Below, in pieces: positions 9,818 to 40,641 of a stretch of 42,346 bases of DNA. The DNA lies in contig JABJPM010000017.1 of assembly GCA_018663865.1 (NCBI GenBank), positions 1 through 42,346 of the forward strand. The letters run 5' to 3'. A program made the position numbers and the translations under genes. A model generated the notes under the pieces. The model saw nothing but the letters and a program-made list of their open reading frames with translations. It did not search any database and was not told where the DNA came from. Positions within the stretch are counted from its first letter, which is position 1. Each line of letters begins with the position of its first letter. The stretch comes from Candidatus Woesearchaeota archaeon (GTDB lineage Archaea; Nanobdellota; Nanobdellia; SCGC-AAA011-G17; PNOQ01).

Positions 9818-10280
9818 TTGTAATCACCTTAAAATCCATAAACCCATTTTTCAAATCCCCATTCTCTGAAATTATGACCAATTTTCGAGTATCATAGCAA
9901 TCGTATTTAGCAGTCTTTAAGCCACAAACAATTTTTTGTGCAACCATCTCCTTATTTAATTCAACAATTCTAATTTCGCTCCCATTAAGATGGTATAAAT
10001 TCATCTGTACCCCATTAAAAGTATTGAAACAACTCTTTAATCGCCCCTCATTAAAATTATTTAAATTTAAAATTCCATTTTCTAAACCAATACAAGTTTC
10101 AGAATCCAATAATCGATAAACTATGGAGTGTTGCTCCAAATTAGACGTTTCAACATCTATCTTCACTCCGTGAGTAAAAACTAAAATGATAAATACTACT
10201 ACAAAAATTATCACAAATGCATAAAAAATCATTTTCAATTGCTCTTTCTCATAAACTTGTCCTTTTTTTCCAATATCCAT
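9810..10280 (-). CDS. Prepilin-like protein
   Basis: MDIGKKGQVYEKEQLKMIFYAFVIIFVVVFIILVF; KKG|Q leader. Confidence 0.78.
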   Translation of the reverse strand: MDIGKKGQVYEKEQLKMIFYAFVIIFVVVFIILVFTHGVKIDVETSNLEQHSIVYRLLDSETCIGLENGILNLNNFNEGRLKSCFNTFNGVQMNLYHLNGSEIRIVELNKEMVAQKIVCGLKTAKYDCYDTRKLVIISENGDLKNGFMDFKVITNV

Positions 10281-10672
10281 TATTCTTCAACTCCTATCGC
10301 AGAAAAACCATATCGGTCTTTTACTAAAAAAATAGAATTATATTTTTTTACATCGAGCGAATAAATCGGCGAGTTCGAATCTTTTGAACAATAATATTTT
10401 GATCCTGCTGTGCCACCGATACTGACAATATATTTACATTCATCTTTGAATCCAACATAATAATCCGCATCATTTAAAAAATATTCAATTGCATAATCCC
10501 CACTATCAAATCCAATCAATAAATCTGTAGCGAGTCCAAAATCATTAACAATTAATTTTTCATTAAATGCGTCACCATTGGAAGATTTTTCCATAACATA
10601 CAGCATTGGGAGAAAAACAACTATAACAATAATAACATACGTGGACCAAAAATATATTCTTTCCTCAGCCAT
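10280..10672 (-). CDS. Single-TM extracytoplasmic protein in pilin cluster
   Basis: MAEERIYFWSTYVIIVIVVFLPMLYVM; two Cys; overlaps the next gene by 1 bp; no clear KKG leader. Confidence 0.7.
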   Translation of the reverse strand: MAEERIYFWSTYVIIVIVVFLPMLYVMEKSSNGDAFNEKLIVNDFGLATDLLIGFDSGDYAIEYFLNDADYYVGFKDECKYIVSIGGTAGSKYYCSKDSNSPIYSLDVKKYNSIFLVKDRYGFSAIGVEE

Positions 10673-10711
10673 ATAATAATTCTTTTGAAATAGGCATTTA
10701 TATTACTTTTC

Positions 10712-11200
10712 CTACACTTCATTCAGTATCAAAGTATTATTGATAATTTCAATACTTAAATCTACATATTCTCCTTGAGTTACAGTCACGATTTTGGAAG
10801 AATGAATAGTATTAATTTCATCAAATTCAAAAGTTGTTATTAATTCTGGGTTTTTGCAAGATTCTGGAGAATTATGCTCATCACATATCACTAAACAAGA
10901 TTTACCAAAACAGGCTGCAGGCCTTTCAAAAATACCTGATTTTTGGTTCTGCCCCATATCAAATGCAACCAAATAATGGCCATTACTCATGTAGAATAAA
11001 AAAGTAGAACTTTCACCATGTTGCATATTGTCTATAGTAGTCGACATAGCTGAAAGTGATTTTTCAGTTAATTGGGAAACATCAGGAAATAAAAATTCAA
11101 AAATTGAACTTCCGACATTAAATAAAAATAATAAAATAATTACTCCAAGTATTAACCCTACAACAGATTTTATACTCATATTTAATTGTGCCTTGCTCAT
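10712..11200 (-). CDS. Prepilin-like protein
   Basis: MSKAQLNMSIKSVVGLILGVIILLFLFNVG; 4 Cys. Confidence 0.75.
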   Translation of the reverse strand: MSKAQLNMSIKSVVGLILGVIILLFLFNVGSSIFEFLFPDVSQLTEKSLSAMSTTIDNMQHGESSTFLFYMSNGHYLVAFDMGQNQKSGIFERPAACFGKSCLVICDEHNSPESCKNPELITTFEFDEINTIHSSKIVTVTQGEYVDLSIEIINNTLILNEV

Positions 11201-11415
11201 TATGAAAATCCCGCCGTCAAATTTTTTGGAGTGCTATCTCTTGCAATACCCAAAAAATCGCCAACACTATCAAAAATTATACTAGATTGTCCACTAAATA
11301 TCATGAGAATTATTAATACTACAATAAGGATTATTAATAATTTTACTATATGTTCAATGGACATGCCTTGTCCACGGTTGTTATTCAAAAAAGAATAAAA
11401 AAAATTAAAATTCAT
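11200..11415 (-). CDS. Small prepilin-like protein
   Basis: NNNRGQGMSIEHIVKLLIILIVVLIILMIFSGQSS; 71 aa. Confidence 0.72.
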   Translation of the reverse strand: MNFNFFYSFLNNNRGQGMSIEHIVKLLIILIVVLIILMIFSGQSSIIFDSVGDFLGIARDSTPKNLTAGFS

Positions 11416-11418
11416 TGT

Positions 11419-11763
11419 TTAACAAGATATTGATGAACACGAGACCTTTCCATTAGATACTAATTCAGCACATGTCATCTCTACAACATCCTCTCCGCCG
11501 CCAGAAATTTCAAAAACATTTGTACAGAATTGATTTCTTAAAGATTCATCGCCAACAGTATCGTACCTAGTACATAATCCATCACATTTCAAAATTGCTG
11601 CTTGAGCATCAATTGCTTGAGATTCCCAAATTTCATTCCACCAATCCATGAAATTTCCTGAGCCACCAGCTAATGCAACCACTAAAATAACTAAAACAAA
11701 AATTGCTAAGATCGTAATTATAATAGTATTGATAGAAAGTGTTTGACCTTTTTTATTATTCAT
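11419..11763 (-). CDS. Prepilin-like protein, 6 Cys
   Basis: MNNKKGQTLSINTIIITILAIFVLVILVVALAGG; SD GAGGTGAT supports start at 11763 rather than the track start 11784. Confidence 0.8.
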   Translation of the reverse strand: MNNKKGQTLSINTIIITILAIFVLVILVVALAGGSGNFMDWWNEIWESQAIDAQAAILKCDGLCTRYDTVGDESLRNQFCTNVFEISGGGEDVVEMTCAELVSNGKVSCSSISC

Positions 11764-11816
11764 TATATTATCACCTCTAACCAATTATTATTGGATTATT
11801 TATTTAAATCTTTTGG

Positions 11817-12410
11817 TTAATCACAAATATTATTTGGGCCCTTTATAGAAAGAATTCCCTCACTAACAATGCAAATAGAATCAGAATTGGGTTTATAAAA
11901 AACATAATCTAAATTTACATTTTTCAATCCTTTATCAGAAGAAATTTTAACATTACTAGAAAAAAACAGAGTAATTCTGTCATCCTTAATATTTCCCGGA
12001 AATTCTAAGAAAACCCCATTTTTATCAAAGCAAGGAGTTACATCTCCAATCCATTTTTCTAAAAATTTTCCACCTTGATTATTAATAAAATTAAGGGACA
12101 TATCTCCCGCATCATCATAAAAATTCAAACTATAATCATTGGGAAATGAAAATCCCTCAACTTCACAAAAACAACTTTTCTTTGAACTATCCCTGCAATC
12201 ATATAAACTAGAAATCAATACATCTTCAACAAATTCCACTGAATCATCTTGGGTAGATTGTTCTTCCGCAGTTAAACTAACTTGAAATCCCAACATTTCC
12301 CGAATTTCGGAATATGCAGGCCCGGCCCATGCAAGGACCACTACAATCAAAATCAAAATCAGAATCGGTTTTACTATAGAATTTAAAACCATATCTCCGT
12401 TTTTATTCAT
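11817..12410 (-). CDS. Prepilin-like protein, 6 Cys
   Basis: MNKNGDMVLNSIVKPILILILIVVVLAWAG; start overlaps the upstream stop. Confidence 0.77.
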   Translation of the reverse strand: MNKNGDMVLNSIVKPILILILIVVVLAWAGPAYSEIREMLGFQVSLTAEEQSTQDDSVEFVEDVLISSLYDCRDSSKKSCFCEVEGFSFPNDYSLNFYDDAGDMSLNFINNQGGKFLEKWIGDVTPCFDKNGVFLEFPGNIKDDRITLFFSSNVKISSDKGLKNVNLDYVFYKPNSDSICIVSEGILSIKGPNNICD

Positions 12411-12568
12411 CCTCCGAACCTCACGACAGTTTTTAACTGTTTCAAAATATCTGAAACCCTATCATTTTGGTCCCCGATGATTAATAAAATTAAAATTAAT
12501 AAAATAATTAATAAAATCCAAACTCCCATTTTATCCCAAACAATTTCGGCTTTTTTACCGATTTTCAT
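12407..12568 (-). CDS. 53-aa single-TM prepilin-like microprotein
   Basis: MKIGKKAEIVWDKMGVWILLIILLILILLIIGDQNDRVSDILKQLKTVVRFGG*; GGAGTGGTG SD-like sequence; ATGA overlap with the next gene. Not in ORF track. Confidence 0.75.
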   Translation of the reverse strand: MKIGKKAEIVWDKMGVWILLIILLILILLIIGDQNDRVSDILKQLKTVVRFGG

Positions 12569-13424
12569 TGCACCACTCCTTTATAGAATCTCCCGAACCA
12601 ATATTTAATCCAGCAATGTAATCCTCCTTCACTGTAGACATCATAAGAATAGAACTTCCCACTCCTATAGCCCCTCGAGCACATAATGATGCAACAAGAG
12701 ATGTAGCAATTCCTCCCGACCCATATATGGCCGCGCCGCATACCACAATACTTCCCACTCCAACCCCCAATTCAGTCCAAAATGCCGCATTATATCTTCT
12801 ATCCTTATCAATTAAAAATCCGACATATAGGGGTTCATCAGTACTAAAAACAGAAAAAGAATTTTGTAAATTATCTCCAATTTGGTTTGGCAAACCACCC
12901 CCATAAAAATACTCATAAAAAGTTATTTCTTCAGAAGATAGAGGAAGATTTTCAGTTTTTAAAAAATCATTAAACTCGCCCATTGACAATTCAGAATATT
13001 TATCTTTGACATCCTCATCAAAATCAATTCTGGAACAAACAAAACACCACTCGTCGCTACCCATGAAATCATTGTTATCCAAAAAATCTCGTTTTCCCTC
13101 TCCAAATTGATACCAACAATCATACATTTCATTAGTAATTTCCCCATAAATTTCATTCTTATCAGTAGATTTTATTTCAATCAAATTAGTTTCGCATACA
13201 ACATTATCTATTAATGTATTTCCAAGTATTTTGCTTCGTTCTTTCAACAACACACTATCTCTGCATGCTTCTCGATTCACACTATCCTCTCCGATCTGTA
13301 AAATAGTAGTTGTAGCAAAAAATAATATTCCTGCAACAATTATAACTGGAATAGCCACAACAATAACCCTCATCATTTCTCCTTTTTTATCAAGATACAA
13401 TTGAATCCACCTTCCCAGTAACAA
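12555..13424 (-). CDS. Prepilin-like/minor pilin-like protein with C-terminal hydrophobic segment
   Basis: ...YLDKKGEMMRVIVVAIPVIIVAGILFFATTT; start ambiguous (TTG at 13424 or TTG near 13400). Confidence 0.72.
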   Translation of the reverse strand: MLLGRWIQLYLDKKGEMMRVIVVAIPVIIVAGILFFATTTILQIGEDSVNREACRDSVLLKERSKILGNTLIDNVVCETNLIEIKSTDKNEIYGEITNEMYDCWYQFGEGKRDFLDNNDFMGSDEWCFVCSRIDFDEDVKDKYSELSMGEFNDFLKTENLPLSSEEITFYEYFYGGGLPNQIGDNLQNSFSVFSTDEPLYVGFLIDKDRRYNAAFWTELGVGVGSIVVCGAAIYGSGGIATSLVASLCARGAIGVGSSILMMSTVKEDYIAGLNIGSGDSIKEWCNENR

Positions 13425-13521
13425 ACATATAGAATAAAAAGATAGATACCATTATTAAAACTAAAATGAAAATTTCCTTAAGATATTCATCCAAAACCCC
13501 TTTTTTATTCATACTTTTCAT
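13390..13521 (-). CDS. 43-aa prepilin-like microprotein
   Basis: MKSMNKKGVLDEYLKEIFILVLIMVSIFLFYMFVTGKVDSIVS*; KKG|V leader; directly downstream of tadC. Not in ORF track. Confidence 0.72.
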   Translation of the reverse strand: MKSMNKKGVLDEYLKEIFILVLIMVSIFLFYMFVTGKVDSIVS

Positions 13522-13543
13522 TTTAATTTATTACTTTATAAAT

Positions 13544-15688
13544 TTACCCGCCAACAGCCCCAAGGGTAGTCGCAGCAATCCTTCCGAAAATTAATACTGA
13601 AATTAAAGTAACAACTAAATAAATCATTGTCCCTTTAATGAGATTCTTTCCAACACTATTCTGTTCACTTAATTTATCTACCCCAAATTCTATGCTATTA
13701 GCCAAAACAGTCAAAATATAAATTATCTGAACAACATAAATTCCAACAACAACTTGAAACCAGTATCCTGGAATTGCATCCGCTTTATTGAATAATTCAG
13801 AAAACGTAGATAAGTCCATTCCACCACCTGCAGACAATGCAGAATTATCTTGCAATCCTGATAATCTATCACTTAATTTTGAAATTACTCCTACAATCAT
13901 GCTAGATATTCCTACAACAATTCCAGAAATTACCGGCGCCATAAAATTAATTTGACTCTTCATACTGGATATTATTTCAGACAATAAATCTTTCAATCGT
14001 TCATTAACACTATGGACATTGCTAACATAATTAGATATGCTCGTTAAAGATTGTGCAACAACAGTTGGGCCCTTCCTAGAACTCTCAATTAATACTTCCA
14101 TAGAACTCTCTACAAGAGGACTAGGATAATTTAATAACGCACCATTGTCTGGATTGAAAATCGCTTCCCTTAAGTCCATGCCAGCCTTTGTAAGATTTAA
14201 ATGGATCTTTTCAAAGAATTTTCCAGCAGGGGTGCCACTCATGGTTTTGGCAACATCTTGAAAAGCTAACTCTGAAGGAATACCATCTCCAATCCTTGTG
14301 CCAAGTTGGAATAATGCAGTAGAAAACTCCTTTTCTAATTTTTTAGTTTCATTTCGAATAAACATTGCTTTTTTAGTTTTGGATTTATAATATAGCCCAA
14401 TACTCAACGCAATTCCTAGTGGAATAAACATTCCAAGAATGAGTGCCCCTAAACCAAATGGACCAATACATCCTTTTTCATTACAATCAAAATCCAAAAA
14501 TGATTCTCCGACACCATCTGAATTTTTCCAGAATTCAAAATCATAAGCAGGATTTATTGCATTAACTATAAATGGTGAGATCCCTATTAAAAACAACAAA
14601 ACAAACAACATAACTGAAAAAGTGAATGCTCCTTTTTTTCTAGATAAATCTACATTCATTTCACCATAACTTCCAGGGCGCTTGGACAATATATTAACTC
14701 CAGAATTATATACAATTATTGGCAAAAGAACATTATAAACTGCAAATAAATAATACCACTTAACCCCTGGTATAAATGCCCCAATTAATGGGAAGATGAC
14801 CAAACCTAAGATTGGCAATATTACCCCTAGCATATGTAGCATAGTTATAGGATTTTTTAAATCCTGAGCATAATGCAACATTCTTTCATAAGTTCCATCC
14901 AAAATAACTTTCAAAGATTTATCAAGCAATTCCAATCTTCGGTCTTCACTTGGTTCATACAAACTACTTTCAACTAAATGAAAAGAATTAACAAACTCTA
15001 GATTATATTCTCTCCACTTTCCAAGATAATTTTCCAAAGAATCTTTCAGAGTTGAATACTTTCCAGTCTCAATATCCCAAAATACTTTTTTCAAATCTAA
15101 CGAAAGAGGATCAGAAATATGGTCTGCCGCAAATTTGATCGCGTTTTCCAGATTTGAAGTATGCCTCATATAAATAACAATATATAACAAACATAAAACC
15201 ATCTGATTGCCTGCTGCCAATCTCCACTTATCTGCCAATCGAAGTGGATATCTAGTAATTGGACCAATTATTACAACAGAAATTAAAATAAATACCATTG
15301 ATAATAATAAAAGACCCATCTGGCCTGTTGCAAAATAAGATACTGCTCCAACAATTAAACTAAGAATTACTAATATGGATGCAAAAACCATTGCAAAACT
15401 AGCTGCACCCACTGGAGTCATATTTAAATGTGCAATGGCAATGCTTTCCTCAATTTTTTTAATATCCTTTTCAGAAGGATTTACTTTAATTATATCTTCA
15501 GAAAAATTACAAAATTTTTCATAAGTAGTATTTGTTTTTCCGAGTGCTTCTTTTCTAAAAGCCAAATATTGTTTAGAAAATTTTGGATCAGGAGAATAAC
15601 TTCCAACACCTTCCAAATTAACATTTTTATCTAATTTGGTTTTATATTTATCCAATACTTCATCAATTTCTTTATTTGAAATCGGCAT
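13544..15688 (-). CDS. TadC/ArlJ-like type IV pilus platform protein (two T2SSF-like regions)
   Basis: 714 aa polytopic; C-terminal region FSTALFQLGTRIGDGIPSELAFQDVAKTMSGTPAGKFFEKI...; SD GAGGTGA; overlaps the ATPase stop. Confidence 0.9.
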   Translation of the reverse strand: MPISNKEIDEVLDKYKTKLDKNVNLEGVGSYSPDPKFSKQYLAFRKEALGKTNTTYEKFCNFSEDIIKVNPSEKDIKKIEESIAIAHLNMTPVGAASFAMVFASILVILSLIVGAVSYFATGQMGLLLLSMVFILISVVIIGPITRYPLRLADKWRLAAGNQMVLCLLYIVIYMRHTSNLENAIKFAADHISDPLSLDLKKVFWDIETGKYSTLKDSLENYLGKWREYNLEFVNSFHLVESSLYEPSEDRRLELLDKSLKVILDGTYERMLHYAQDLKNPITMLHMLGVILPILGLVIFPLIGAFIPGVKWYYLFAVYNVLLPIIVYNSGVNILSKRPGSYGEMNVDLSRKKGAFTFSVMLFVLLFLIGISPFIVNAINPAYDFEFWKNSDGVGESFLDFDCNEKGCIGPFGLGALILGMFIPLGIALSIGLYYKSKTKKAMFIRNETKKLEKEFSTALFQLGTRIGDGIPSELAFQDVAKTMSGTPAGKFFEKIHLNLTKAGMDLREAIFNPDNGALLNYPSPLVESSMEVLIESSRKGPTVVAQSLTSISNYVSNVHSVNERLKDLLSEIISSMKSQINFMAPVISGIVVGISSMIVGVISKLSDRLSGLQDNSALSAGGGMDLSTFSELFNKADAIPGYWFQVVVGIYVVQIIYILTVLANSIEFGVDKLSEQNSVGKNLIKGTMIYLVVTLISVLIFGRIAATTLGAVGG

Positions 15689-17966
15689 TATTCACCTCTG
15701 TTTCCAACCATTCTTTCCACCTAAATAAGATTCTTTTGGTATTAAGTTCACCGTATTTTGTTAAAACAGAATCGGAAATTTTATGAAACTGATCATTGGC
15801 CGCAATAACAAATGGAGCCTCCAAAATAGACGCTCTTTTTGTTTTATGATAACTCTTTAATAATTCCTCTTTTATAGTTTTCCTAAGTATGATGTTTTCC
15901 CATACTGCATCCCAATCTCCTGCCCACTCTTTAACATTACCTGCAATTTGTTTTATGATTTCAGAATCCCCATTTAGTAAACTATCCGTGGGTTCCAATT
16001 CATCTGTTTCGGGATTATAAAGCATAAGATCTACAAATCCCCCTTCTTTTTGAGGATCATCATCCCATTCTTTTCTTACTTCAGTAATACTCAAAACTCT
16101 CCTCAATTTTTTTAAACCATCTGGAGATTTGATGGGGTTAGAAACCACAATTATATCTGTTGCTTTAAAACTTGTTCGTGGAACTCCCAAATCATTTACA
16201 ACCCTGTCAAAGATAGAATACGGGCTACCACCATGAATCGTTCCTGCAACAACATTCGCCAATGCGCCAACCCTCATGGCCTCATAAAGTGCTAATGCCT
16301 CTTTACTTCTTACTTCACCAACAATTAAACTACTATCTCCCAATCTTAAACTTGTTCTAATTCCTTCTTCCGCAGATAATTCCGTTCCGCCTTCCATTAA
16401 TGCGGAACGCACTTTCAGAGGCTGTATATTATATCCTAATTTTCTTAATGAACCTACTGGCAACTCCAAAGTATCTTCCACAGTAATTACTCTTGCCTTT
16501 CGCATAATCTCCACCATTGCAGCCCCCAATAATGAAGTTTTACCGCTACTCCGGGTTCCAGCGAATAACATTGTTCTTCCACCATCTATAAAAAAACTAA
16601 GTAATGCGGCCCCCATTGAATTTATCATTTTTTTGTCCATAAATAATGGGAATGTCCATGGATTGTCCCTATGCCTCCTAAAAGCATATCCTAATCCAAC
16701 CGGATTCAGGGGGGAAGTAATTATTGCCACTCTCGCCCGTGCGCCCGGAATAATTAATTCAGTATCTAAAACTGGATTTGCCTCATCGAGTGGCCTTCCG
16801 GAAATTAATCTAAATTTTGTAGCCCATCCCTCTCCATCCCTTTTACTAGGAATGATATTTGTCGAACAATCACCATAATCTTGATGAACTATATAGATTG
16901 GGCTTTCACCAATCGGACCATTAACTACAATATCCTGTATTTTTTCATCTGCCAAGATTATTTCCAGCAACCCAAATCCAACAGTATATCTTACCAAAAT
17001 TTTAGCTAATTTTTCAACTGTAGAATATTCAAGATCAATTCCTTTTCTTTGTGCCAACTCCCCAATAAGGTCCCTCCCAATATTAAAAAAGGTCTCCCTC
17101 GTCCTTTCAGGATTGGTAAATTCTTCAGCAACAGGTTCGTGTTCAGCTAAAACCGTTCGAGCAAGATCCAATAATTCTAGATAATCTTCACTCAAATTGA
17201 ACTCGGGTGGCGTCAAATGATACCTTGGTTTAATATCATCATCCAAATCAAAAATCATAACTGATGCATCATCATTCAAAAGATAGCTATCTATTTCTCC
17301 TGCATTCATCGGCGGTTCAGCCATCATCCGTGTGTGCATAAAATTTGGCGAAATTAGAGGTTTGAAATAATTTGAGTAAATTTTTCTATCCCCTATAACA
17401 AATCCATCTAATTCATCTTTTGTAAGAGAAATTAATTTTGTTTTTTCAATTAAATCAAACATTTCTTGTAATGTTTTCAAATAAGTATCTTCTTGGGTTT
17501 TTTCAAAATCAGATTCGATTTTGGTTAATTTAATCTTTTGTTCTCGAATCAATCTTTTTAATTCAACATATGCACCAATAGGATCGGACCTAATTAAATT
17601 CGTAACAATATATTGTAGTTCCCCAAACCTATTAGAAACAGAATTTGAATATCCCGGATCCATCCCTGTAGAGTATAAACTAATAACTTTTTTTTGTTTT
17701 GTTAAATAAACATAAATATTTGCAATTTCCCTCAACATTTTAGTTTGTTCTACATCATATAAATAATTCTTGTCTGCAGAAAGAACTAATCTAGAAATAT
17801 TTGGACTTTCAACAATCCTATCAATTATAGATGCCATACATAATTTATTATTTTCAATTGAAGGCGGATACGACAATCCAATGAAATTCACTTTCATAAT
17901 ATGGTCATCGCCCTCTTGTACGATTTCATATTCCCCGGGTTTCAATTTTTTTCTAGAAATTGACAT
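15672..17966 (-). CDS. TadA/VirB11-like type II/IV secretion ATPase
   Basis: Walker A FAGTRSSGKTSLLGA, RVITVEDTLELP, LIVGEVRSKEALALYEAMRVGALANVVAGTIHGGSPYSIFDRVVNDLGVP; SD GGTGAT upstream of the ATG at 17966. Confidence 0.95.
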   Translation of the reverse strand: MSISRKKLKPGEYEIVQEGDDHIMKVNFIGLSYPPSIENNKLCMASIIDRIVESPNISRLVLSADKNYLYDVEQTKMLREIANIYVYLTKQKKVISLYSTGMDPGYSNSVSNRFGELQYIVTNLIRSDPIGAYVELKRLIREQKIKLTKIESDFEKTQEDTYLKTLQEMFDLIEKTKLISLTKDELDGFVIGDRKIYSNYFKPLISPNFMHTRMMAEPPMNAGEIDSYLLNDDASVMIFDLDDDIKPRYHLTPPEFNLSEDYLELLDLARTVLAEHEPVAEEFTNPERTRETFFNIGRDLIGELAQRKGIDLEYSTVEKLAKILVRYTVGFGLLEIILADEKIQDIVVNGPIGESPIYIVHQDYGDCSTNIIPSKRDGEGWATKFRLISGRPLDEANPVLDTELIIPGARARVAIITSPLNPVGLGYAFRRHRDNPWTFPLFMDKKMINSMGAALLSFFIDGGRTMLFAGTRSSGKTSLLGAAMVEIMRKARVITVEDTLELPVGSLRKLGYNIQPLKVRSALMEGGTELSAEEGIRTSLRLGDSSLIVGEVRSKEALALYEAMRVGALANVVAGTIHGGSPYSIFDRVVNDLGVPRTSFKATDIIVVSNPIKSPDGLKKLRRVLSITEVRKEWDDDPQKEGGFVDLMLYNPETDELEPTDSLLNGDSEIIKQIAGNVKEWAGDWDAVWENIILRKTIKEELLKSYHKTKRASILEAPFVIAANDQFHKISDSVLTKYGELNTKRILFRWKEWLETEVNNADFK

Positions 17967-18052
17967 ATCACCACTCCCCTTTGACAACATAACTTTTAAT
18001 ATACATCTATGTAAATAAATACATAGTATTATTAAATACTTTTCGATTTAAA

Positions 18053-18439
18053 ATGACACAACCAATCCCTGTACAACCAAATTATGTAAATCCGAATGAA
18101 TTGAATACGAGAATCAGAATTTTAGAAGGGAAATATAATTTAACAAGAGAGCGAATGTTATTAATAAATCAGAATATGGTTGACCATTATAAAACATTAA
18201 ACGATGAAATACGAATAATAAAAAAAGATTTAAAAGAAATAAAGGAGACCATGGAGACAATAAAAGATACAAATAGAAACATGATTAAAGAAATGTCTTT
18301 TTTTGCCAGAAAAGAACAACTAAAAGTTTTAGAAAAATATATTAACATGTGGAATCCATTGAACTTTGTAACAAAAGAAGAAGTATTAGAATTAATAAAT
18401 AAAAAAGGTGATAAACATGATTCCAGAAAGAAAAAATGA
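18053..18439 (+). CDS. Coiled-coil protein divergent from pilus ATPase
   Basis: 128 aa; long charged helical stretch; C-terminal ARKEQLKVLEKYINMWNPLNFVTKEEVLELI. Confidence 0.75.
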   Translation: MTQPIPVQPNYVNPNELNTRIRILEGKYNLTRERMLLINQNMVDHYKTLNDEIRIIKKDLKEIKETMETIKDTNRNMIKEMSFFARKEQLKVLEKYINMWNPLNFVTKEEVLELINKKGDKHDSRKKK

Positions 18440-19049
18440 TGCTACAAAAAGGGTCCTTGATTTACAAAAAAATGGTATGCAAGGAAAAGACATTGAGAAT
18501 ACTATGCAACAAGAAAAATTTAATTCTGGCGATATTTCAGCAGGAATAGATCAGGCGGCAGTAAAAAATGAAATTGCCCCGGTAAGAGAACCCTTAAATT
18601 TAGATAGTGTTCCCTCTCCCCAGAATGCTCCTTTAGAGACTGCACAACCTCCTGCAATTCCACAACAAACTGCGCCAGGAATACCTAGCACCACGTCTTT
18701 TGCACCAGAACCAGTAGGAAGGGCAAATTATGAAGCAATCGAGGAAATCGCAGAATCGGTAATTTCGGAAAAATGGGAAGAAATGATTTCTAACATTGGA
18801 GATTTAAGATTATGGAAAGAAAAAGTAGAGACTGATCTTTCTGGAGTAAAACAAGAAATTTTAAGAATTGAATCAAGATTCGAAAATTTACAAAAAGCAG
18901 TTTTGGGTAAAGTTGGAGAGTATAGTGAAGGCGTTACAAATCTAACTACTGAAATGAAGGCAATGGAAAAAGTTTTTGAAAAGATTTTAGAACCATTGAC
19001 TAGAAATGTGAAAGAACTTGATGAGATCACTAAAAAAATGAAAAAATAA
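18417..19049 (+). CDS. Coiled-coil protein with Pro-rich linker
   Basis: MIPERKNDATKRVLDLQKNGMQGKDIENTMQQEKF...; SD AAAAGGTGAT before the ATG at 18417; overlaps the preceding gene. Confidence 0.78.
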   Translation: MIPERKNDATKRVLDLQKNGMQGKDIENTMQQEKFNSGDISAGIDQAAVKNEIAPVREPLNLDSVPSPQNAPLETAQPPAIPQQTAPGIPSTTSFAPEPVGRANYEAIEEIAESVISEKWEEMISNIGDLRLWKEKVETDLSGVKQEILRIESRFENLQKAVLGKVGEYSEGVTNLTTEMKAMEKVFEKILEPLTRNVKELDEITKKMKK

Positions 19050-19056
19050 TTTTTTT

Positions 19057-19551
19057 TTATTCTCTTAATTTATTTATTAAAATTGTAGCCAATAAAAATA
19101 TAAATACTACTCCAAAAACTTTTGGATGAAAAATAGTTCTTAATGTTTCCCAGCCAGGATCTGCCCCTGCAGAATATGGATTAAAAACAGGCCCAAATGT
19201 AGATGAAATTACAATCATTAAAACTATTACTGAAACATAAAGCAAAATACTTTTTCCAATTGGCATTTCCGTTATTTCTCCAACATTGCCAGTAGAGATC
19301 ATTAGTGTCATCATAACAACTGCAACGGTTATCAAAACATACCAAACACTCAATGTACCAACAAAACTCGCAGCATTCTCAGATATTAAAGTTAATAGTG
19401 CCACAATTAATGCAGCAATAAAATCTAATTTTTGCACCCCTCCAAGAATTTTACTCTTTTGTAAAAGGGCATAAATAATAACAAAAATTAAAATAAAAAC
19501 TAAAACCGGAGCAAGATATTGTATTAACCCTGCATCCCATAATGTGGCCAT
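19057..19551 (-). CDS. Polytopic membrane protein (paralogue 1 of 3)
   Basis: LIQYLAPVLVFILIFVIIYALLQKSKILGGVQKLDFIAALIVALLTLI. Confidence 0.8.
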   Translation of the reverse strand: MATLWDAGLIQYLAPVLVFILIFVIIYALLQKSKILGGVQKLDFIAALIVALLTLISENAASFVGTLSVWYVLITVAVVMMTLMISTGNVGEITEMPIGKSILLYVSVIVLMIVISSTFGPVFNPYSAGADPGWETLRTIFHPKVFGVVFIFLLATILINKLRE

Positions 19552-19554
19552 TTA

Positions 19555-20106
19555 TTAATCCCCTGAATCCCTTCGCGTTCTTGCTTTTTTAGCATCATCC
19601 TTGCTAGCATAAGCAACTAACCAGATGAATCCCGCAAAAACCCCTACAACCAATAAAGTGGATAAATAAGATTCCAGATAATAAAACCAATGTGGAGTTG
19701 AAAGTCCGTATGTTCCAGAAGATAAAGACCAAAATAATGCGATAAGAGTGATAATTATTCCCAAAATAGCCCCTCCACCGGATCCAAAATCACTATCGCC
19801 TCCAAACATTGAAACAACTAACATCATCATTATACCAAGCACAATGAAAAATGCCATCCGGGATAAATATGCATTCATCCACATGATAATTGCAGGTTCG
19901 GACAATATTAAAAATCCAATTATTAAAGAAACTACTACATTAATATTTGTTTTCGCAGCAGGATTATCTCCATCCCCTACTTTTCCAAAGATCTTAGTTT
20001 TTTCAAGTATTGCAAAAACAACTACAAAAACTAACATGAAGGGTAAAACATACTCATAAAAACCCATGCTCTCTAACTCATAAAATAGTGATCTCATATC
20101 AATCAT
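19555..20106 (-). CDS. Polytopic membrane protein (paralogue 2 of 3)
   Basis: FYEYVLPFMLVFVVVFAILEKTKIFGKVGDGDNPAAKTNINVVVSLIIGFLIL. Confidence 0.82.
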   Translation of the reverse strand: MIDMRSLFYELESMGFYEYVLPFMLVFVVVFAILEKTKIFGKVGDGDNPAAKTNINVVVSLIIGFLILSEPAIIMWMNAYLSRMAFFIVLGIMMMLVVSMFGGDSDFGSGGGAILGIIITLIALFWSLSSGTYGLSTPHWFYYLESYLSTLLVVGVFAGFIWLVAYASKDDAKKARTRRDSGD

Positions 20107-20660
20107 TAATCATCATCTCCCTTTGGTTGTTTAGTAATAAACACTATCAATCCGATTATTACTCCAACAACAGCGACTCCAATGAAAATTTCTTGCATCG
20201 CCCCTCCGCTAACCGAACTAAATAATTTTGATAATAATGAAACTCCGGGCGAGACCATATATGCACCCATAAAAATTAAAGCTAAAGCAATAAACATTAC
20301 AAATGAAAAAAATATGTACCATTTAGATTCATTTTCTTTAAAATCGAATTCTTCTGTTTTCCAAAAAATACCCAACATCAATAAAAAGGACATTGCAATA
20401 ACAATCATTAATGCTATATTTGGTAATGCTGAAGTGATTATATTTACTGCCTTATTTGCAGAAACAAATAATAATGCAACAACTAATGCTACAATAGAAT
20501 TTAAATTTTTCTTTGGTTCACCAGAACTTTCTTTACCTAAAATTAAAGTCTTCTCTAATATTGCAAAAATAATTGCAAAAATAAGTAAAAATGGCAAGAC
20601 AACATCAAATAGTCCAAAGTCCTGCAAAAATTCTATTGATCCTCTTAAAACTGATGTCAT
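20106..20660 (-). CDS. Polytopic membrane protein (paralogue 3 of 3)
   Basis: LFDVVLPFLLIFAIIFAILEKTLILGKESSGEPKKNLNSIVALVVALLFV. Confidence 0.82.
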   Translation of the reverse strand: MTSVLRGSIEFLQDFGLFDVVLPFLLIFAIIFAILEKTLILGKESSGEPKKNLNSIVALVVALLFVSANKAVNIITSALPNIALMIVIAMSFLLMLGIFWKTEEFDFKENESKWYIFFSFVMFIALALIFMGAYMVSPGVSLLSKLFSSVSGGAMQEIFIGVAVVGVIIGLIVFITKQPKGDDD

Positions 20661-27757: not shown

Positions 27758-28114
27758 ATGAAAGATAATACTTTATTGAAAATATCTCTTTGTTGCACAT
27801 TATTGGGGATATTGGTAATCCTATTCATTGTTGAAAATTCGGAAATACCGGAATCGAATATATCGAATTTGACTAAAGATAATCTTGGGACAACGGTTTC
27901 AGTATCAGGAAAAATAACCCGTATTACTGAAACCCCGGGACTTTTAATTTTAGATTTGAGTGATTCGACAGGAAAAATAACGGCAATCATATTTAAGGAA
28001 GGGAATATGACTCTTCAAAAAAATCAAATAGTCACAATAGAAGGAAAATTGATAGAATATGAAGACAAATTAGAAATTCAGGCAAATATATTAAAAATAA
28101 GAAAGTGGACATAA
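27758..28114 (+). CDS. TM-anchored OB-fold nucleic-acid-binding-like protein
   Basis: N-terminal TM; VSVSGKITRITETPGLLILDLSDSTGKITAIIFKE (tRNA_anti-like). Confidence 0.8.
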   Translation: MKDNTLLKISLCCTLLGILVILFIVENSEIPESNISNLTKDNLGTTVSVSGKITRITETPGLLILDLSDSTGKITAIIFKEGNMTLQKNQIVTIEGKLIEYEDKLEIQANILKIRKWT

Positions 28115-29313
28115 TGTTATTTGAAATTTTAATAGCGATCATTTTGGGATGTATAGCCGGAATAATTACTGGGTTAATCCCTGGAATTCATATAAATTTA
28201 GTTTCAGTTTTAATTTTGTCATTTTCAGTTTCATTATTAGAAATAACATCTCCAATAATTGTATCAATATTCATAATTTCGATGGCAATAACCCATACAT
28301 TTCTAGATACAATACCTGCAATTTTTTTGGGTGCACCAGAGGCTGATACCGCATTATCAATTTTGCCAGGCCATAAATTACTTTCAGAAGGCAGAGGATA
28401 TCATGCAGTAATTTTAACATTAATAGGAAGTTTATTTAGCATAATCCTTGCAATAATCTTTGCACCAATAATTGCAATAATAATAAACAAAATATATCCC
28501 TACTTATCAAAAATTATGGGGCACATATTAATTGTGACCTCAATTTTTTTAATTTCAAAAGATTCGAAATCTAAATATTGGGCATTTATCATTTTTATGT
28601 TGGCAGGAGTATTGGGGATTGCAACTTTAAATTTTCCAAATTTAGAAAACCCCTTATTTCCTTTATTATCTGGCATGTTTGGTACAAGTGGATTGATAAT
28701 AAGTTTAAATCAGAAAGTGAAAATCCCTGCCCAAATAATTTCTGAATTAAAAATAAAAAAGAAAACAATTTCTCAAGCAGTTGGGGCATCATTTGTTGCA
28801 GGTAGTTTATGTTCATTTATGCCTGGGCTTGGGCCATCTCAAGCAGCCATCATAGGATCACAATTAACAAAGAAAATGGAGCGCGAAGGATTTCTAATAT
28901 TGATTGGAGGGTTAAATACAATAAATATAATCATGTCATTCATTGCACTGTATATTTTAGATAAGGCTAGAAATGGTGCAATAATTACTGTTTCAAAAAT
29001 AATGGGGTCCTTTTCATTATCTAATTTAATTTTATTTTTGGGTGTAGCGCTTGTAGTCGCAGGAATAGCAACATTTTTAACAATAAACTTGACGAAGATA
29101 TTTTCAAAAATAATGACAAAGGTTAATTATACTAAACTTTGCATTTCCATCATTATCTTAATATTTGGATTGACAATATTTTTATCAGGAAAATATGGGT
29201 TGTTAATATTGACTGTGTCCACTGCATTAGGCATCGTACCCCCCTTGATTGGGGTTGGAAGGAATCACCTGATGGGTTGTTTGTTATTACCTGTGATTCT
29301 TTATTTTATATAA
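28105..29313 (+). CDS. TctA-like polytopic transporter family protein
   Basis: IILGCIAGIITGLIPGIHINL, GSLCSFMPGLGPSQAAIIGSQL. Confidence 0.8.
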   Translation: MDIMLFEILIAIILGCIAGIITGLIPGIHINLVSVLILSFSVSLLEITSPIIVSIFIISMAITHTFLDTIPAIFLGAPEADTALSILPGHKLLSEGRGYHAVILTLIGSLFSIILAIIFAPIIAIIINKIYPYLSKIMGHILIVTSIFLISKDSKSKYWAFIIFMLAGVLGIATLNFPNLENPLFPLLSGMFGTSGLIISLNQKVKIPAQIISELKIKKKTISQAVGASFVAGSLCSFMPGLGPSQAAIIGSQLTKKMEREGFLILIGGLNTINIIMSFIALYILDKARNGAIITVSKIMGSFSLSNLILFLGVALVVAGIATFLTINLTKIFSKIMTKVNYTKLCISIIILIFGLTIFLSGKYGLLILTVSTALGIVPPLIGVGRNHLMGCLLLPVILYFI

Positions 29314-32852: not shown

Positions 32853-34337
32853 TTATTCACAAAATTTCATTAATTTAACATCTCTAGTTTGTAGACTTAC
32901 CAATGGGACTCTGCAGGGTTCAGGATGGTGTCCGACTTTTTCCTGAAATTTAGTAATAGCTTGCCAACAACTTCCAGAAATTAAAGTTGTTTTACCATAA
33001 TGGCTGACGCTTGATTTATGGATGTGCCCTGAAGCAAAAAAATCAGGGACATCTTTGATTATTAAATCATCTCTGTCGGGTTCAACTACGAATAATGTTG
33101 AACCATGGGATGGCGCAAGGTGCCTTTTTTTCATTAAAAATTTCATAACTAAATCTGCACGATCATATCCTCCTTGTTCCCTGATACTTTCAACCTGGTC
33201 AATATAATAATCAAAACTATATCCATGATACATTAAAACATTAAAACCCTCAAAATTATCTTTTGATCCGATATTGACTACAGCGGGATTACTTACAATA
33301 TGGACATTATCCATTGCGTAAAGATTACTTGCAAATTCCTCATCGAGAACTGGTTGAGGTTCGGCCAATCTTAGTGCGTCATGATTTCCGGGGCAAACAA
33401 TAATTTGTAAATCGCTCCGCATTTTGGAAAAATAGTGCGCACATTGATCATATTGATCTTTTATGTTGGGAATGGATAATTCTGCCTCCTGATTAGGATA
33501 GATCCCTGCACCATCTACAATGTCACCTATAACAAATAAATATTTGACAGATTTTGCCATTTTTTGTTGCTCTTCACTACCAGAATTACCATTTATCCAA
33601 TCTATGAATTTTTCAAATTCCTTTTCCAAAAACATATCGGACCCGACATGTATATCGGAAATAAATGCGGCATGCTCATTAATTATAGATTTTTTCATAA
33701 TATTATCTTCGATTTTGACATCGGGAAAAAATAATTCATTTACAAATACAATCTTGTTCCCCATGTTGCCAACCAGCCCTATTACTTCATCGGGCACTAT
33801 ATCCTTCGCCATATCAAAAATTTCTTTTTTTGTTGAATTTATTAAAACTTTTATTTTTCCAGTTGGATCTTCAATTTCTAACATTACATTGCCATTTTTT
33901 GTCATTTTTTTACTATATACTAATCCAATCAAGGACACCTTTTCTCTTTGCATTTTAGAAAATGTCCTACTAACAGACATAACATCTGTCAATTCAATTC
34001 TGCCCTGCAATAATTTACTCATAAATTTATATCTTGTCCTGTAATGTTCGATAAAATGCCCGATTTCTATTTTACTTAATTTATCTTCATATGAATCTAT
34101 AATTTTAACATTCCCAATTAAAGGAGATTCACCCTGTGAACTTGAATTTTCACATTTTAAATATTTTAATTTTAATTTGTCTAATATGGACTTATTCAAT
34201 ACTTGACCCCTAATCTCATTGGCATGGCCATTGATTAAATCAAAAGAGGAATCATCAATCAAACTAATCACATCGGGATCAAGAAATATCCCCTCATCCA
34301 TCAAATTTTTTATTTTTTCATTCATATACTGAGCCAC
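32853..34337 (-). CDS. polB: DNA polymerase II (PolD) small subunit DP1
   Basis: Calcineurin-like phosphoesterase motifs AFISDIHVGSDMFLEKEFEKFIDW, VIGDIVDG, CPGNHDALRLAEPQP. Confidence 0.97.
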   Translation of the reverse strand: MAQYMNEKIKNLMDEGIFLDPDVISLIDDSSFDLINGHANEIRGQVLNKSILDKLKLKYLKCENSSSQGESPLIGNVKIIDSYEDKLSKIEIGHFIEHYRTRYKFMSKLLQGRIELTDVMSVSRTFSKMQREKVSLIGLVYSKKMTKNGNVMLEIEDPTGKIKVLINSTKKEIFDMAKDIVPDEVIGLVGNMGNKIVFVNELFFPDVKIEDNIMKKSIINEHAAFISDIHVGSDMFLEKEFEKFIDWINGNSGSEEQQKMAKSVKYLFVIGDIVDGAGIYPNQEAELSIPNIKDQYDQCAHYFSKMRSDLQIIVCPGNHDALRLAEPQPVLDEEFASNLYAMDNVHIVSNPAVVNIGSKDNFEGFNVLMYHGYSFDYYIDQVESIREQGGYDRADLVMKFLMKKRHLAPSHGSTLFVVEPDRDDLIIKDVPDFFASGHIHKSSVSHYGKTTLISGSCWQAITKFQEKVGHHPEPCRVPLVSLQTRDVKLMKFCE

Positions 34338-35548
34338 CCACGCAATTGAGAAATTAATCCAGGTATACTTGACTGCGGCATGGCAAGACCAATTTCCTTT
34401 GTACGCCCATATCGCCCCTTACTAATAACTTTAGCATTGATTATACCCAACATGTCTAATTCTGCAATTAGGTCTGACAATCTCCTTTGTGTTAAAGGTT
34501 TTAATCCGCATTTTATGCAGAGGTTCATATATACCTCATATACATCTCCAGTAAAAAATTTCTCATTACCTTTTTTTTCATATAGATCAAAAATCGCCAA
34601 TAAAGTTAATTGTGATTGTTTAGGCAAGGTATTTATTACCTCTACAACTAAATCATTTTCTATTTTTGATTCAGCCTCATCAATATGCACTATATCCACT
34701 TTCAAATCATTTTTTCGTTCAGCTAGCTCCCCTGCAACCCTCAATAGATCTAAGGCCCTCCTGGCATCACCATGCTCCCTTGCGGCATAGGCAGCACATT
34801 TTTCAATTACTCCCTCAGAGATAGAGCCATCTTTGAATGCACCTTTTGATCTTTCAAGTAAAATATCTTGCAATTGTAATGCATTATATGATGGAAAATT
34901 TAAATCCTCCTCTGCGAGAGAAGATTTTATTCTCGGATCAAGATCGTTTGCAAACCGGAGATCGTTTGATACCCCTACAAATGTCACCTGAGTATTTTTT
35001 AATTCTGCATTCATCCGGGTTAAATTATAGAGAATTTCATCTCCTGCCTTTTTTACTAGTTGATCAATTTCATCAAGAATTAAAATTATTTGATTAGGGC
35101 CAGCCTCAATATTTTTTATGAATAATCGGTAGACTTCATCAGTAGGTAATCCTGTGACAGGAATATTCTTTTGCCCAAACTCTCTAGCCAAACTAGCAAT
35201 GAGCCTATATTCTGTATCTGCAACCCTTTTTAATTTACAATTAATATAAACTACTTTTAAGGGTAAATCCTTACTATTGGAAATCTCCCTAAGATTATTT
35301 GTTACATGCAATACTGACAAAGTTTTTCCAGTACCAGTTTTACCATATAGAAATAAATTTGAAGGTTTCTCATTTCTAAGTACTGGGGCAAGGACACCTG
35401 CAATCTCATTAATCTGCTCATCCCTGTGAGGGATAGTGTCCGGAGTATAACTTGTTTGCAAAATCTTTTTATTTTTGAAAATCGATTCTTTTCCAAGGTA
35501 ATCTTCAAAAAAATTTTTTATCCCATCTTTTGTCATTTTATTTTTCAA
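34322..35548 (-). CDS. cdc6: ORC1/CDC6-type replication initiator
   Basis: DTIPHRDEQINEIAGVLAP, LFLYGKTGTGKT, ILDEIDQL, YAAREHGDARRALDLLR; C-terminal winged helix. Confidence 0.97.
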   Translation of the reverse strand: MKNKMTKDGIKNFFEDYLGKESIFKNKKILQTSYTPDTIPHRDEQINEIAGVLAPVLRNEKPSNLFLYGKTGTGKTLSVLHVTNNLREISNSKDLPLKVVYINCKLKRVADTEYRLIASLAREFGQKNIPVTGLPTDEVYRLFIKNIEAGPNQIILILDEIDQLVKKAGDEILYNLTRMNAELKNTQVTFVGVSNDLRFANDLDPRIKSSLAEEDLNFPSYNALQLQDILLERSKGAFKDGSISEGVIEKCAAYAAREHGDARRALDLLRVAGELAERKNDLKVDIVHIDEAESKIENDLVVEVINTLPKQSQLTLLAIFDLYEKKGNEKFFTGDVYEVYMNLCIKCGLKPLTQRRLSDLIAELDMLGIINAKVISKGRYGRTKEIGLAMPQSSIPGLISQLRGWLSI

Positions 35549-35598
35549 AATAGAAAATATCTATTTAAACATTGTTATATTTGAAAATAGACTCCTAG

Positions 35599-35620
35599 CC
35601 CTTCATTTCCTTTGGAACAA
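35599..35620 (-). promoter_or_regulatory. ORB-like motif (reverse orientation)
   Basis: Reverse complement reads TTGTTCCAAAGGAAATGAAGGG, resembling the dyad + G-string of archaeal ORBs. Confidence 0.55.
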
Positions 35621-35815
35621 TAAATTTAGAAAAAAGCATACCCTTGAATTTTTATTTCTAGTAGAAAAATGCCCTGAATACAATTGAAATATATATACTA
35701 TATAATATATTTATATAATATATATATAATATAATAATAAAACTTAAAAACAAAAATTTAATTAAAAATTAAAAATTTTTCAAATATATGCCAATACAAA
35801 CCTCCTACTGCCATA

Positions 35816-35845
35816 ATAATATAATATAATATAATATAATATAAT
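35816..35845. repeat. ATAAT pentanucleotide tandem repeat (6 units)
   Basis: ataatataatataatataatataatataat read directly. Confidence 0.9.
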
Positions 35846-35862
35846 TATTATCGAAGATAAAA

Positions 35863-35886
35863 CAAAAACAAAAACAAAAACAAAAA
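35863..35886. repeat. CAAAAA hexanucleotide repeat (4 units)
   Basis: caaaaacaaaaacaaaaacaaaaa read directly. Confidence 0.9.
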
Positions 35887-35924
35887 AATAAAATGGACTC
35901 CATTAGAAATTTTAATAATTAAAC

Positions 35925-35955
35925 ATCTCCACTGGCAACAAAGGTCCGGGGGGGT
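35925..35955 (+). promoter_or_regulatory. ORB-like motif (forward orientation)
   Basis: ATCTCCACTGGCAACAAAGGTCCGGGGGGGT: dyad-like CTCCACTGG, then a G-string. Confidence 0.6.
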
Positions 35956-35995
35956 AAACCATAATTTTATATATTAATTAAAATATTAATAATAT

Positions 35996-36289
35996 ATGAA
36001 TCTAATAATGTTACTAATTATTGTAGGGATCACAATCTTTGTATTAGAAATGGCAAAACATGTAGTATTCAAATCATTCTCAAAAACAATGATAATGATC
36101 ATAATGGTTTTAGGTGTTTTTTTTGTGATAATTGCAACACTATATAGCCAAAATGATATAGAAACTGATAATCCTGCCATAATCTCTGGCGCAGCAATAA
36201 TAAATACATTAAACGAAGACGGATATTTTGAAAATTTAAATGAAAAATTTGAAGGGATAAAACAAGATCTAAGTGACTCATTTAGTTAG
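35996..36289 (+). CDS. Small two-TM membrane protein
   Basis: 97 aa; TATA-like tttatata at 35966-35973, consistent with leaderless start. Confidence 0.7.
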   Translation: MNLIMLLIIVGITIFVLEMAKHVVFKSFSKTMIMIIMVLGVFFVIIATLYSQNDIETDNPAIISGAAIINTLNEDGYFENLNEKFEGIKQDLSDSFS

Positions 36290-36345
36290 GAAATTTTTAT
36301 AAACATATGCCTAATTACAATATATAATAAGGAGGATTGCCCAAA

Positions 36346-36606
36346 ATGGTTGATGATAAAAAATATGCAAAACAAATTTTAGGGAAAGTGGTAGTGAGTA
36401 AGGCCGGAAAAAGATTCGGAGAAGTAGGTAATTTAGTTTTTGAAACAAGGACTGGAGAATTATTACAAATTATCTTAAAAAATCCAACTGGTTTTACAGA
36501 AGGATTGGATTTAGAAAAAGATGCCACTGGAAATCTATTAATACCTCATAGCTCCGTCATAGCAGTAGGGGATTTTATAGTAGTAGCGGAAGAAGATATA
36601 ATCTAG
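36346..36606 (+). CDS. PRC-barrel domain protein
   Basis: MVDDKKYAKQILGKVVVSKAGKRFGEVGNLVFETRTGELLQIIL; SD GGAGG upstream of ATG 36346. Confidence 0.85.
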   Translation: MVDDKKYAKQILGKVVVSKAGKRFGEVGNLVFETRTGELLQIILKNPTGFTEGLDLEKDATGNLLIPHSSVIAVGDFIVVAEEDII

Positions 36607-38932: not shown

Positions 38933-39002
38933 AATTCATTACTAATCAATAACCGATCAATCAATCACCAATCAATCACTAATTAATCACTAATTAATCA
39001 CG
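38933..39002. repeat. 11-bp iteron-like direct repeats (4 close copies + 2 degenerate)
   Basis: 38959 AATCAATCACC, 38970 AATCAATCACT, 38981 AATTAATCACT, 38992 AATTAATCACG; degenerate units at 38933 and 38944. Confidence 0.85.
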
Positions 39003-39174
39003 CACCATGGATACTCATATTTACTTGCCTAATCAACATAAAACTAGATCAAACGTTCTTATTTTCTGGCTTTCTCACAAATACACTTAGAAATCGGGCC
39101 TAACTTTCACTTAATACATATATTAATCTCATAAAACTATAAAAATGAACCCTCACTCTTTATTTTTGAGATAG

Positions 39175-39864
39175 ATGGATGAAAAAATTCTAAAAAAAGC
39201 TTTTGTAAAAGTAAAATCAGATATTGAAAATTTAAATAATAGGTTGGAAAATATTGAAAATACCCTGAATTTACTCATTTCTATCAAAAATAATCAAAAA
39301 AACACTAAAAACGATGGAAGTTCCAGTGGAAATGAAGGGGTCCGATCAATCAATCATTCAACAAACAATCAATCAATCACTAATCAATCACGTGCTGAGC
39401 ACAAAATCGGGCAGTATACCCCTCAAATAAGCCATAATTATGATAATTTGGAACGATCTGATCAATCACTGAGCAATCAATCACTGAGCAATCAATCCCT
39501 TTCTAAACACTCACTAAGCACTCAAAAATTAAATATTCAATCACTCAAGAAGGATCTAGAAAATCGATTTAATGCCCTCACTAGTCAAGAATTTCTAGTA
39601 TTTCTTACAATATATCAAATGGAGGAGGACCTTAAACGGCCAGTGACTTATAATGATCTATCTGAACGTTTAAACCTCACTTCTGGATGTATTAGGGGGT
39701 ATGTAAGTGCATTAATCAGGAAGAATTTACCCCTCACAAAGGCAAAAATAAACAACAGAACATTGACATTATCCATAAAATCTGATTTCAAAGAGTTAAA
39801 TCTCAAACAAAAATTAACAAATATCTACTATGATCAAGATCCAGATCAAACAAAACTATTTTAA
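39175..39864 (+). CDS. Coiled-coil + low-complexity linker + C-terminal HTH protein
   Basis: N-terminal DIENLNNRLENIENTLNLL; SDQSLSNQSLSNQSLSKHSLSTQ linker; LTSQEFLVFLTIYQMEEDLKRPVTYNDLSERLNLTSGCIRGYVSALIRKN HTH. Confidence 0.75.
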   Translation: MDEKILKKAFVKVKSDIENLNNRLENIENTLNLLISIKNNQKNTKNDGSSSGNEGVRSINHSTNNQSITNQSRAEHKIGQYTPQISHNYDNLERSDQSLSNQSLSNQSLSKHSLSTQKLNIQSLKKDLENRFNALTSQEFLVFLTIYQMEEDLKRPVTYNDLSERLNLTSGCIRGYVSALIRKNLPLTKAKINNRTLTLSIKSDFKELNLKQKLTNIYYDQDPDQTKLF

Positions 39865-39935
39865 TTATGATTTCTAGTAAAAATTATTAATTGTTGCTAA
39901 TAAATTATTCATCGTCGATAAAACTACAATATAAT

Positions 39936-39999
39936 CGTTCACCGAACGTTCGGTGAACGTTCACCGAACTGTCTATAGACGTCACCGAACGTTCGGTGA
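39936..39999. promoter_or_regulatory. Operator-like palindrome array (five TCACCGAAC half-sites)
   Basis: Perfect 24-bp palindrome CGTTCACCGAACGTTCGGTGAACG (39936-39959), half-site 39961-39969, GTCTATAGAC (39971-39980), perfect 18-bp palindrome TCACCGAACGTTCGGTGA (39982-39999). Confidence 0.88.
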
Positions 40000-40041
40000 A
40001 CGATGCAAAACGTTTATATAGGGGTAATATCAAATATAGGT

Positions 40042-40641
40042 ATGTTTAATTTTTTTAAAAGAGGAAAAAATGATCCAAGGCTCGCTGAAACTATTTCAAC
40101 AATGCAGGAGAGTTTAAAAAAATCATTTACAAATATAAAGAAAGATTTTTCGATGATGGATGGCCATAATAAAACATTCCATGAAAAGCATGAAAAACAC
40201 ACAATTGATCATGGGGAGCATCGAAAAAATATCCAATTGCTTGGTGAGAGGTTAAAATCAATTGAAGAGTCACTGGGCATACTAAAGGAGATAGAAATAG
40301 TGAATGAGGAAGTGAGTGGCGAAGTTGAGGCAGATTTTGGAAATTTAGAGGATATGACTGGGGTATCTCAGAAAATATGTTATGTTCTAGCAGCATTACA
40401 AAAAGAGAACAAAGGCATGGTGACCCTAAAAACCCTTGCAGAAGAAATGTATCCTGGAAAAGAGTATGCAAAAATTAGGTCAACAATATCGCAGTATACT
40501 ACGGAGTTAGAAGAATTGGGCTATGTCCAAAAAAAGAAAAAAGGAAAACAAGTATACATCAAATCTACTGAAAAAAACCCATTTCTAAGTGAGAAGTTAA
40601 CTCCGAAAAAGGTAACAAAAAAAATCAAAATAAAAAAATAA
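40042..40641 (+). CDS. Coiled-coil + C-terminal winged-helix protein
   Basis: MFNFFKRGKNDPRLAETIST...; SQKICYVLAALQKENKGMVTLKTLAEEMYPGKEYAKIRSTISQYTTELEELGYVQKKKKGKQVYI. TATA tttatata at 40013-40020 supports ATG 40042 over the track start 40003. Confidence 0.78.
   Translation: MFNFFKRGKNDPRLAETISTMQESLKKSFTNIKKDFSMMDGHNKTFHEKHEKHTIDHGEHRKNIQLLGERLKSIEESLGILKEIEIVNEEVSGEVEADFGNLEDMTGVSQKICYVLAALQKENKGMVTLKTLAEEMYPGKEYAKIRSTISQYTTELEELGYVQKKKKGKQVYIKSTEKNPFLSEKLTPKKVTKKIKIKK

Follow-up and report, generated by a model that had tools for sequence, protein, structure and literature searches.

The stretch of DNA analysed here, referred to as the window, comprises 42,346 bp from Candidatus Woesearchaeota archaeon and is the whole of contig C6 in an assembly of 594.5 kb in 31 contigs that is 93% complete. 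Positions 35586-35958 of the window, next to the initiator gene cdc6, are, as judged by sequence comparison, very probably the chromosomal replication origin (oriC) of this small-genome DPANN archaeon. An adjoining Orc1/Cdc6 gene, at least two inverted origin recognition boxes (ORBs) matching the consensus and an AT-rich region between them, three of the features by which an ORB-type oriC is recognized, were all found. No description of DPANN origins was found in the literature searched, and the order-wide ORB profile and origin anatomy reported here make origin mapping in uncultured cells testable, for example with existing metagenome coverage.

Inverted ORBs around an AT-rich core beside cdc6

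The proximal ORB (35586-35621, minus strand; TTGTTCCAAAGGAAATGAAGGG at 35599-35620) scored 35.8 bits, and the distal ORB with its G-string (35923-35958, plus strand; ATCTCCACTGGCAACAAAGGTCCGGGGGGGT at 35925-35955) scored 27.1 bits, ranking first and second in the window when both strands were scanned with a profile built outside the window's family. The distal ORB is inverted relative to the proximal ORB and both tails point outward, that of the proximal ORB, weakly G-rich, facing cdc6 and that of the distal ORB facing away from it. The 304 bp between the ORBs (35621-35924), a putative DNA-unwinding element, contain 84.5% A+T, with a peak of 92.5% at 35677-35796, and carry (ATAAT)6 at 35816-35845 and (AAAACA)4.7 at 35859-35886. 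For 60- and 120-bp windows alike, the A+T maximum of the 42 kb falls between the two ORBs, and for 300-bp windows the maximum (35619-35918) coincides with the inter-ORB DNA. A TATA-like sequence upstream of cdc6, TTTAAATA (35562-35569, minus strand), lies 26-33 bp from the start codon and, from its sequence, may be the cdc6 promoter. The first-pass annotation had proposed an origin here, and its ORB-like sites, their inverted orientation, the adjoining cdc6 and a weaker dyad were all confirmed at the stated positions, the three motifs as exact strings. The core that it described as AT-only does contain the window's A+T maxima and the ATAAT repeats, though it holds several AT-only runs, the longest of 44 and 39 bp, rather than one continuous tract.

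The ORB profile, 36 nt in length, was trained on 64 genomes with the window's own family left out; the DNA upstream of Cdc6-1 orthologues had been collected from about 72 genomes, almost all of them from the window's order. In 200 shuffled windows, the maximum scores averaged 6.9 bits, with a 95th percentile of 14.9 and a largest value of 23.8 bits. The core pattern with at most two mismatches occurred three times in the window compared with 0.75 expected. In the 594.5-kb assembly, which beyond the window was searched by core pattern only, there are just two exact core matches, both in the window, at 35600 in the proximal ORB and at 39321 in a further ORB described below.

The arrangement is conserved. 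In a pair test scored leave-one-family-out on the 63 genomes with enough upstream DNA (18 families), the inverted pair was present in 61 genomes and in none of 1260 shuffled sequences, and in these 61 genomes it comprised the two top-scoring sites of the scanned stretch; the seed motif and the distance windows of this test were derived from the same loci, and the window was scored with the profile excluding its own family. In the 61 genomes, the proximal site lies on the cdc6 strand at a median of 78 bp from the cdc6 start (interquartile range 77-81), and the distal site lies on the opposite strand at a median of 387 bp. The inter-ORB DNA of the relatives has a mean A+T content of 0.82. In G048 and G074, the same pair represents the two best profile matches of the scanned stretch, and the two top matches in G086 are likewise at cdc6; no further ORB pair was found by profile scan of these three long relatives, all of which belonged to the training set. 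The order consensus, TTCCAnnGGAAAtaaAGGTGTgGGkGT, agrees with the archaeal common ORB, TCCA[CG]T[TG]GAAA[TC][GA]AAGGGGT (Ori-Finder 2/DoriC; PMC4164010), though differing from it in the extended tail AGGTGTgGGkGT of the oriC ORBs of this order. The same ORB was also found beside cdc6 in genomes of other orders within the class.

The weaker dyad, TTTCTAGTAGAAA at 35655-35667, lies in an element at 35635-35670 on the minus strand, 49 bp behind the proximal ORB, which scores -2.4 bits in the window. Two genomes of the window's family, G002 and G005, carry an ORB of about 14 bits at the same 49-bp spacing, and on this comparison the dyad is a decayed form of a conserved third ORB. A tandem ORB was found in 43 genomes at spacings of 39, 49, 60, 68-74 or 82 bp, in steps of roughly one helical turn. 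Helical phasing was considered as a property of the tandem ORB and set aside, as the pattern, although suggestive, was recognized post hoc, and of its five spacing modes two are single cases. No element resembling ucm was identified in the AT-rich core. A search for such an element yielded mostly degenerate ORBs and TA-rich repeats as enriched words; AAGGCTT occurs in 11 of 62 cores and is absent from that of the window.

The cdc6 gene (34322-35536, minus strand) encodes an Orc1-1-type initiator (Pfam Cdc6_C, 7.1e-30; Cdc6_lid, 4.1e-24). The gene is present where the first-pass annotation had placed it (34322-35548), though its start is more likely the ATG at 35536 than the upstream TTG, because the homologues of relatives begin there. 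The best solved relative of the protein is Sulfolobus Cdc6-1 (2qby_A, 5.6e-111); an Aeropyrum structure also matches (2v1u_A, 9.8e-96). Its recognition helix and wing are near-identical to those of Sulfolobus Cdc6-1, and this conserved winged helix suggests that the Cdc6 of the window would bind ORBs. A second, divergent paralogue (Cdc6-2; G000:C15:25889-26695) shares 35% identity. A second origin at this paralogue was considered and rejected, since no ORB was found within about 8-10 kb of the Cdc6-2 gene. Family f12, G010 and G038 seem to retain only the Cdc6-2-type paralogue.

Probable function of the site as an origin

Sulfolobus oriC1 consists of ORB3, an AT-rich unwinding element and ORB2, together spanning 130 bp, with Orc1-1 as the initiator (PMC12141716). 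The window resembles it in the inverted ORBs around an AT-rich region beside an Orc1-1 gene and in its initiator, which is closest to Orc1-1, and differs from it in the inter-ORB gap of about 300 bp, in the degenerate third ORB on the core side of the proximal ORB and in that no ucm-like element was identified. Haloarchaeal oriC1 likewise has inverted ORBs, each with a G-rich tail, beside cdc6, and the G-strings are essential in oriC1 of Haloarcula hispanica (PMC3936714, PMC4010727); in contrast, the proximal tail in the window is weakly G-rich. By analogy with the established oriC1 pathway (PMC12141716), we propose that ATP-bound Cdc6 would occupy the ORBs with fixed polarity, as in Sulfolobus, Aeropyrum and haloarchaeal oriC1, that the AT-rich core would then melt, and that MCM would be recruited and loaded, leading to bidirectional replication.

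Cdc6 probably regulates its own promoter too, because the proximal ORB keeps a constant spacing to the start of cdc6 and is next to the TATA-like box. This same placement favours the explanation that the ORBs are mere transcriptional operators, through which Cdc6 controls its own gene and the divergent operon, and that replication starts elsewhere. However, an operator has no need of an inverted partner at a distance of some 300 bp, on the far side of the window's most AT-rich DNA, the inverted-pair arrangement is conserved in the relatives, and no other ORB pair was found in the long relatives or near the Cdc6-2 gene; a purely operator role is highly unlikely. It is also unlikely that the origin is real yet mostly dispensable, with replication largely recombination-driven, as may be possible in Thermococcus or Haloferax. 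The lack of a strand-corrected skew would fit such dispensability, as would family f12, in which both Cdc6-1 and whp, a conserved oriC neighbour described below, are missing, indicating that the origin system can be lost, but both the sequence and the position of the ORBs are strongly conserved in nearly all other families.

Several points weigh against the assignment of the site as the chromosomal oriC. The assembly is incomplete and the genome may have additional origins, and some archaea with cdc6 and ORBs, namely Thermococcus and Haloferax, can live without origins (PMC7617429). In the closed genome G048, neither the skew minimum nor the gene-orientation minimum is at cdc6, and strand-corrected third-position skew showed no consistent difference between leading- and lagging-strand genes in 14 genomes. 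By comparison, the gene-orientation minimum of the closed genome G086 lies 0.5 kb from cdc6, and on the cdc6 side most coding DNA is directed away from the site in all 14 genomes, as it is on the opposite side in at least 11 of them. In 13 of the 14 genomes the raw skew is not the same on the two sides, a difference explained by gene orientation. GC skew, which the first-pass annotation had suggested as a check, was therefore dropped as proof of the origin: genes diverge at the site, no consistent switch appeared in the whole-genome skew of G086 and G048 or in the corrected skew of the 14 genomes, and, because no consistent difference remains after gene-strand correction, GC skew argues neither for nor against oriC. 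Archaeal skews are reported in recent work to reflect coding for the most part (PMC12999951), and the present result fits this. The leftward run of replication genes described at 24.7-35.5 kb was borne out for DP2, DP1 and cdc6; as read from the translations, the other genes there are not replication genes, and 28105-29313 runs rightward. The proposal of an oriC at this site itself gained support from the conserved ORB/AT-rich/ORB arrangement and the Orc1-1-type initiator.

An ORB within the coding sequence of whp

The scan for further ORBs revealed a third strong site, missed by the first-pass annotation, inside a gene that we call whp (39175-39864, plus strand), a conserved oriC neighbour whose product is predicted to have a coiled coil, followed by a linker of low complexity and a winged helix. 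Database matches of Whp were weak and limited to generic winged-helix proteins. Homologues occur in 85 of 103 genomes. Where whp and cdc6 share a contig (52 genomes), whp points away from oriC in 51, and in 45 it lies on the distal-ORB side, divergent from cdc6 and less than 20 kb away. The median distance between whp and oriC in the relatives is 6.7 kb; in the window, oriC and the intragenic ORB are 3.4 kb apart. This ORB (39317-39352, plus strand; core 39321-39341; TCCAGTGGAAATGAAGGGGT) scored 16.7 bits, third-best in the window, and matches the common archaeal ORB perfectly, including the AAGGGGT tail. A scoring ORB was found at a comparable place in whp in 8 of the 14 genomes scanned with flanks. 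Usually whp has one strong ORB; there are two in G091, G094 and some loci of family f23, the second copy of the element in G091 and G094 being upstream.

The element, defined by at least 13 of 16 fixed positions, was present in all 77 homologues examined. Its DNA is read in two frames, which give SSxGNxGV-like peptides in 63 homologues and VPQEMKGS-like peptides, unrelated to the former, in 14. Synonymous codons within it are nearly invariant (TCC 60/60, GGA 60/60 and GGG 59/60, compared with 10%, 27% and 24%, respectively, in the rest of the same genes), and recoding of the same peptides with pooled synonymous codons gave the exact element in 0.2% of trials, compared with 48 of 77 observed. 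The invariant synonymous codons, the two frames and the recoding test together show that selection is acting on the DNA of the intragenic ORB. The peptide common to 63 of the 77 homologues would favour the opposite explanation, in which the peptide is conserved and the likeness of the DNA to ORBs is a by-product; this is scarcely credible and already contradicted by the recoding result, by the codon usage (TCC and GGG in particular) and by the 14 homologues in which the DNA is retained although it is read in another frame and gives an unrelated peptide. Of 378 genomes of the class, 136 carry the element pattern and none carries its reversed control. The pattern also occurs inside whp homologues of family f23, outside the order, and in G126 of that family whp and cdc6 are divergent and about 7.5 kb apart. 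Family f12 has neither a close Cdc6-1 orthologue nor whp, and across the order the joint absence of the two genes gave a Fisher p of 9e-6, a value inflated by physical linkage in draft genomes.

The intragenic ORB is followed directly by short tandem repeats with an ATCA unit (39345-39390, plus strand). The unit varies by genome (ATCA, AACA, AAGC, CACG, TTCA, ACAG and others), and in the 77 homologues lag-4 identity is 0.526 compared with 0.295, a 4-bp periodicity not readily attributed to codon effects, as 4 is not a multiple of three. Related 11-bp repeats (CAATCAATCAC) lie at 38944-39004 (plus strand) in the non-coding DNA upstream of whp. The idea that the tetranucleotide repeats make whp phase-variable found no support, as all 77 open reading frames (ORFs) keep the element and the winged helix in one frame.

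We consider it plausible, at a little short of an even chance, that the intragenic ORB is a further Cdc6-binding control site, serving initiator titration or regulation of whp. More tentatively, the region may form an origin-control locus by oriC, in which a Cdc6-binding ORB is kept at the DNA level in whp together with short, partly 11-bp-spaced repeats. Such a locus would tune initiation by titrating Cdc6 or by coupling whp expression to Cdc6; alternatively, it would be the relic of a plasmid-like replicon with a winged-helix initiator, iterons and an initiator box. Rather than a Cdc6 site, the element could be the operator of Whp itself and the repeats after it Whp iterons, given the winged helix of Whp, the presence of repeats both after the element and in the non-coding DNA upstream of whp, and the upstream second copy in G091 and G094. 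This is doubtful, as the match of the element to the Cdc6 ORB extends as far as the AAGGGGT tail and different families have different repeat units, which would be odd for a specific Whp site.

Initiator-binding sites outside the origin with a proposed control function include the ORB-rich, Cdc6E-titrating oriC2D of Haloarcula hispanica and datA of E. coli (PMC3936714). The whp ORB is like them in lying near but outside the origin and could work alike; unlike them, it is a single site within coding sequence, has short tandem repeats after it and is conserved across several families and orders. As most genomes have one strong ORB in whp rather than a cluster of initiator sites, it does not belong to the oriC2D/datA kind of titration locus, though it may work in a similar way. 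That an initiator site should have been kept within a gene, in either of two reading frames and at a stable place relative to oriC, is unexpected and suggests a site controlling initiation, together with a candidate regulator; no earlier description of the conserved intragenic ORB was found.

Neighbouring features

Downstream of whp, a palindrome (CACCGAACGTTCGGTG core) occurs in two perfect copies at 39934-40004, which make up a perfect inverted repeat of 23 nt with a separation of 25 nt. The copies have an operator-like appearance and lie immediately upstream of an ORF at 40003-40641, which encodes a coiled coil and a winged-helix-like C-terminus. Beyond the distal ORB, 35996-36606 holds a PRC-barrel gene and an ORF for a small product resembling a membrane protein; L003 has similar genes in the corresponding position, and L004 a PRC-barrel-like gene. 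Finally, as read from the translations, 9344-20660 holds a long run of archaellum/pilus-like secretion genes and small membrane-anchored proteins, including a large ATPase (15672-17990) and a membrane protein (13544-15688).
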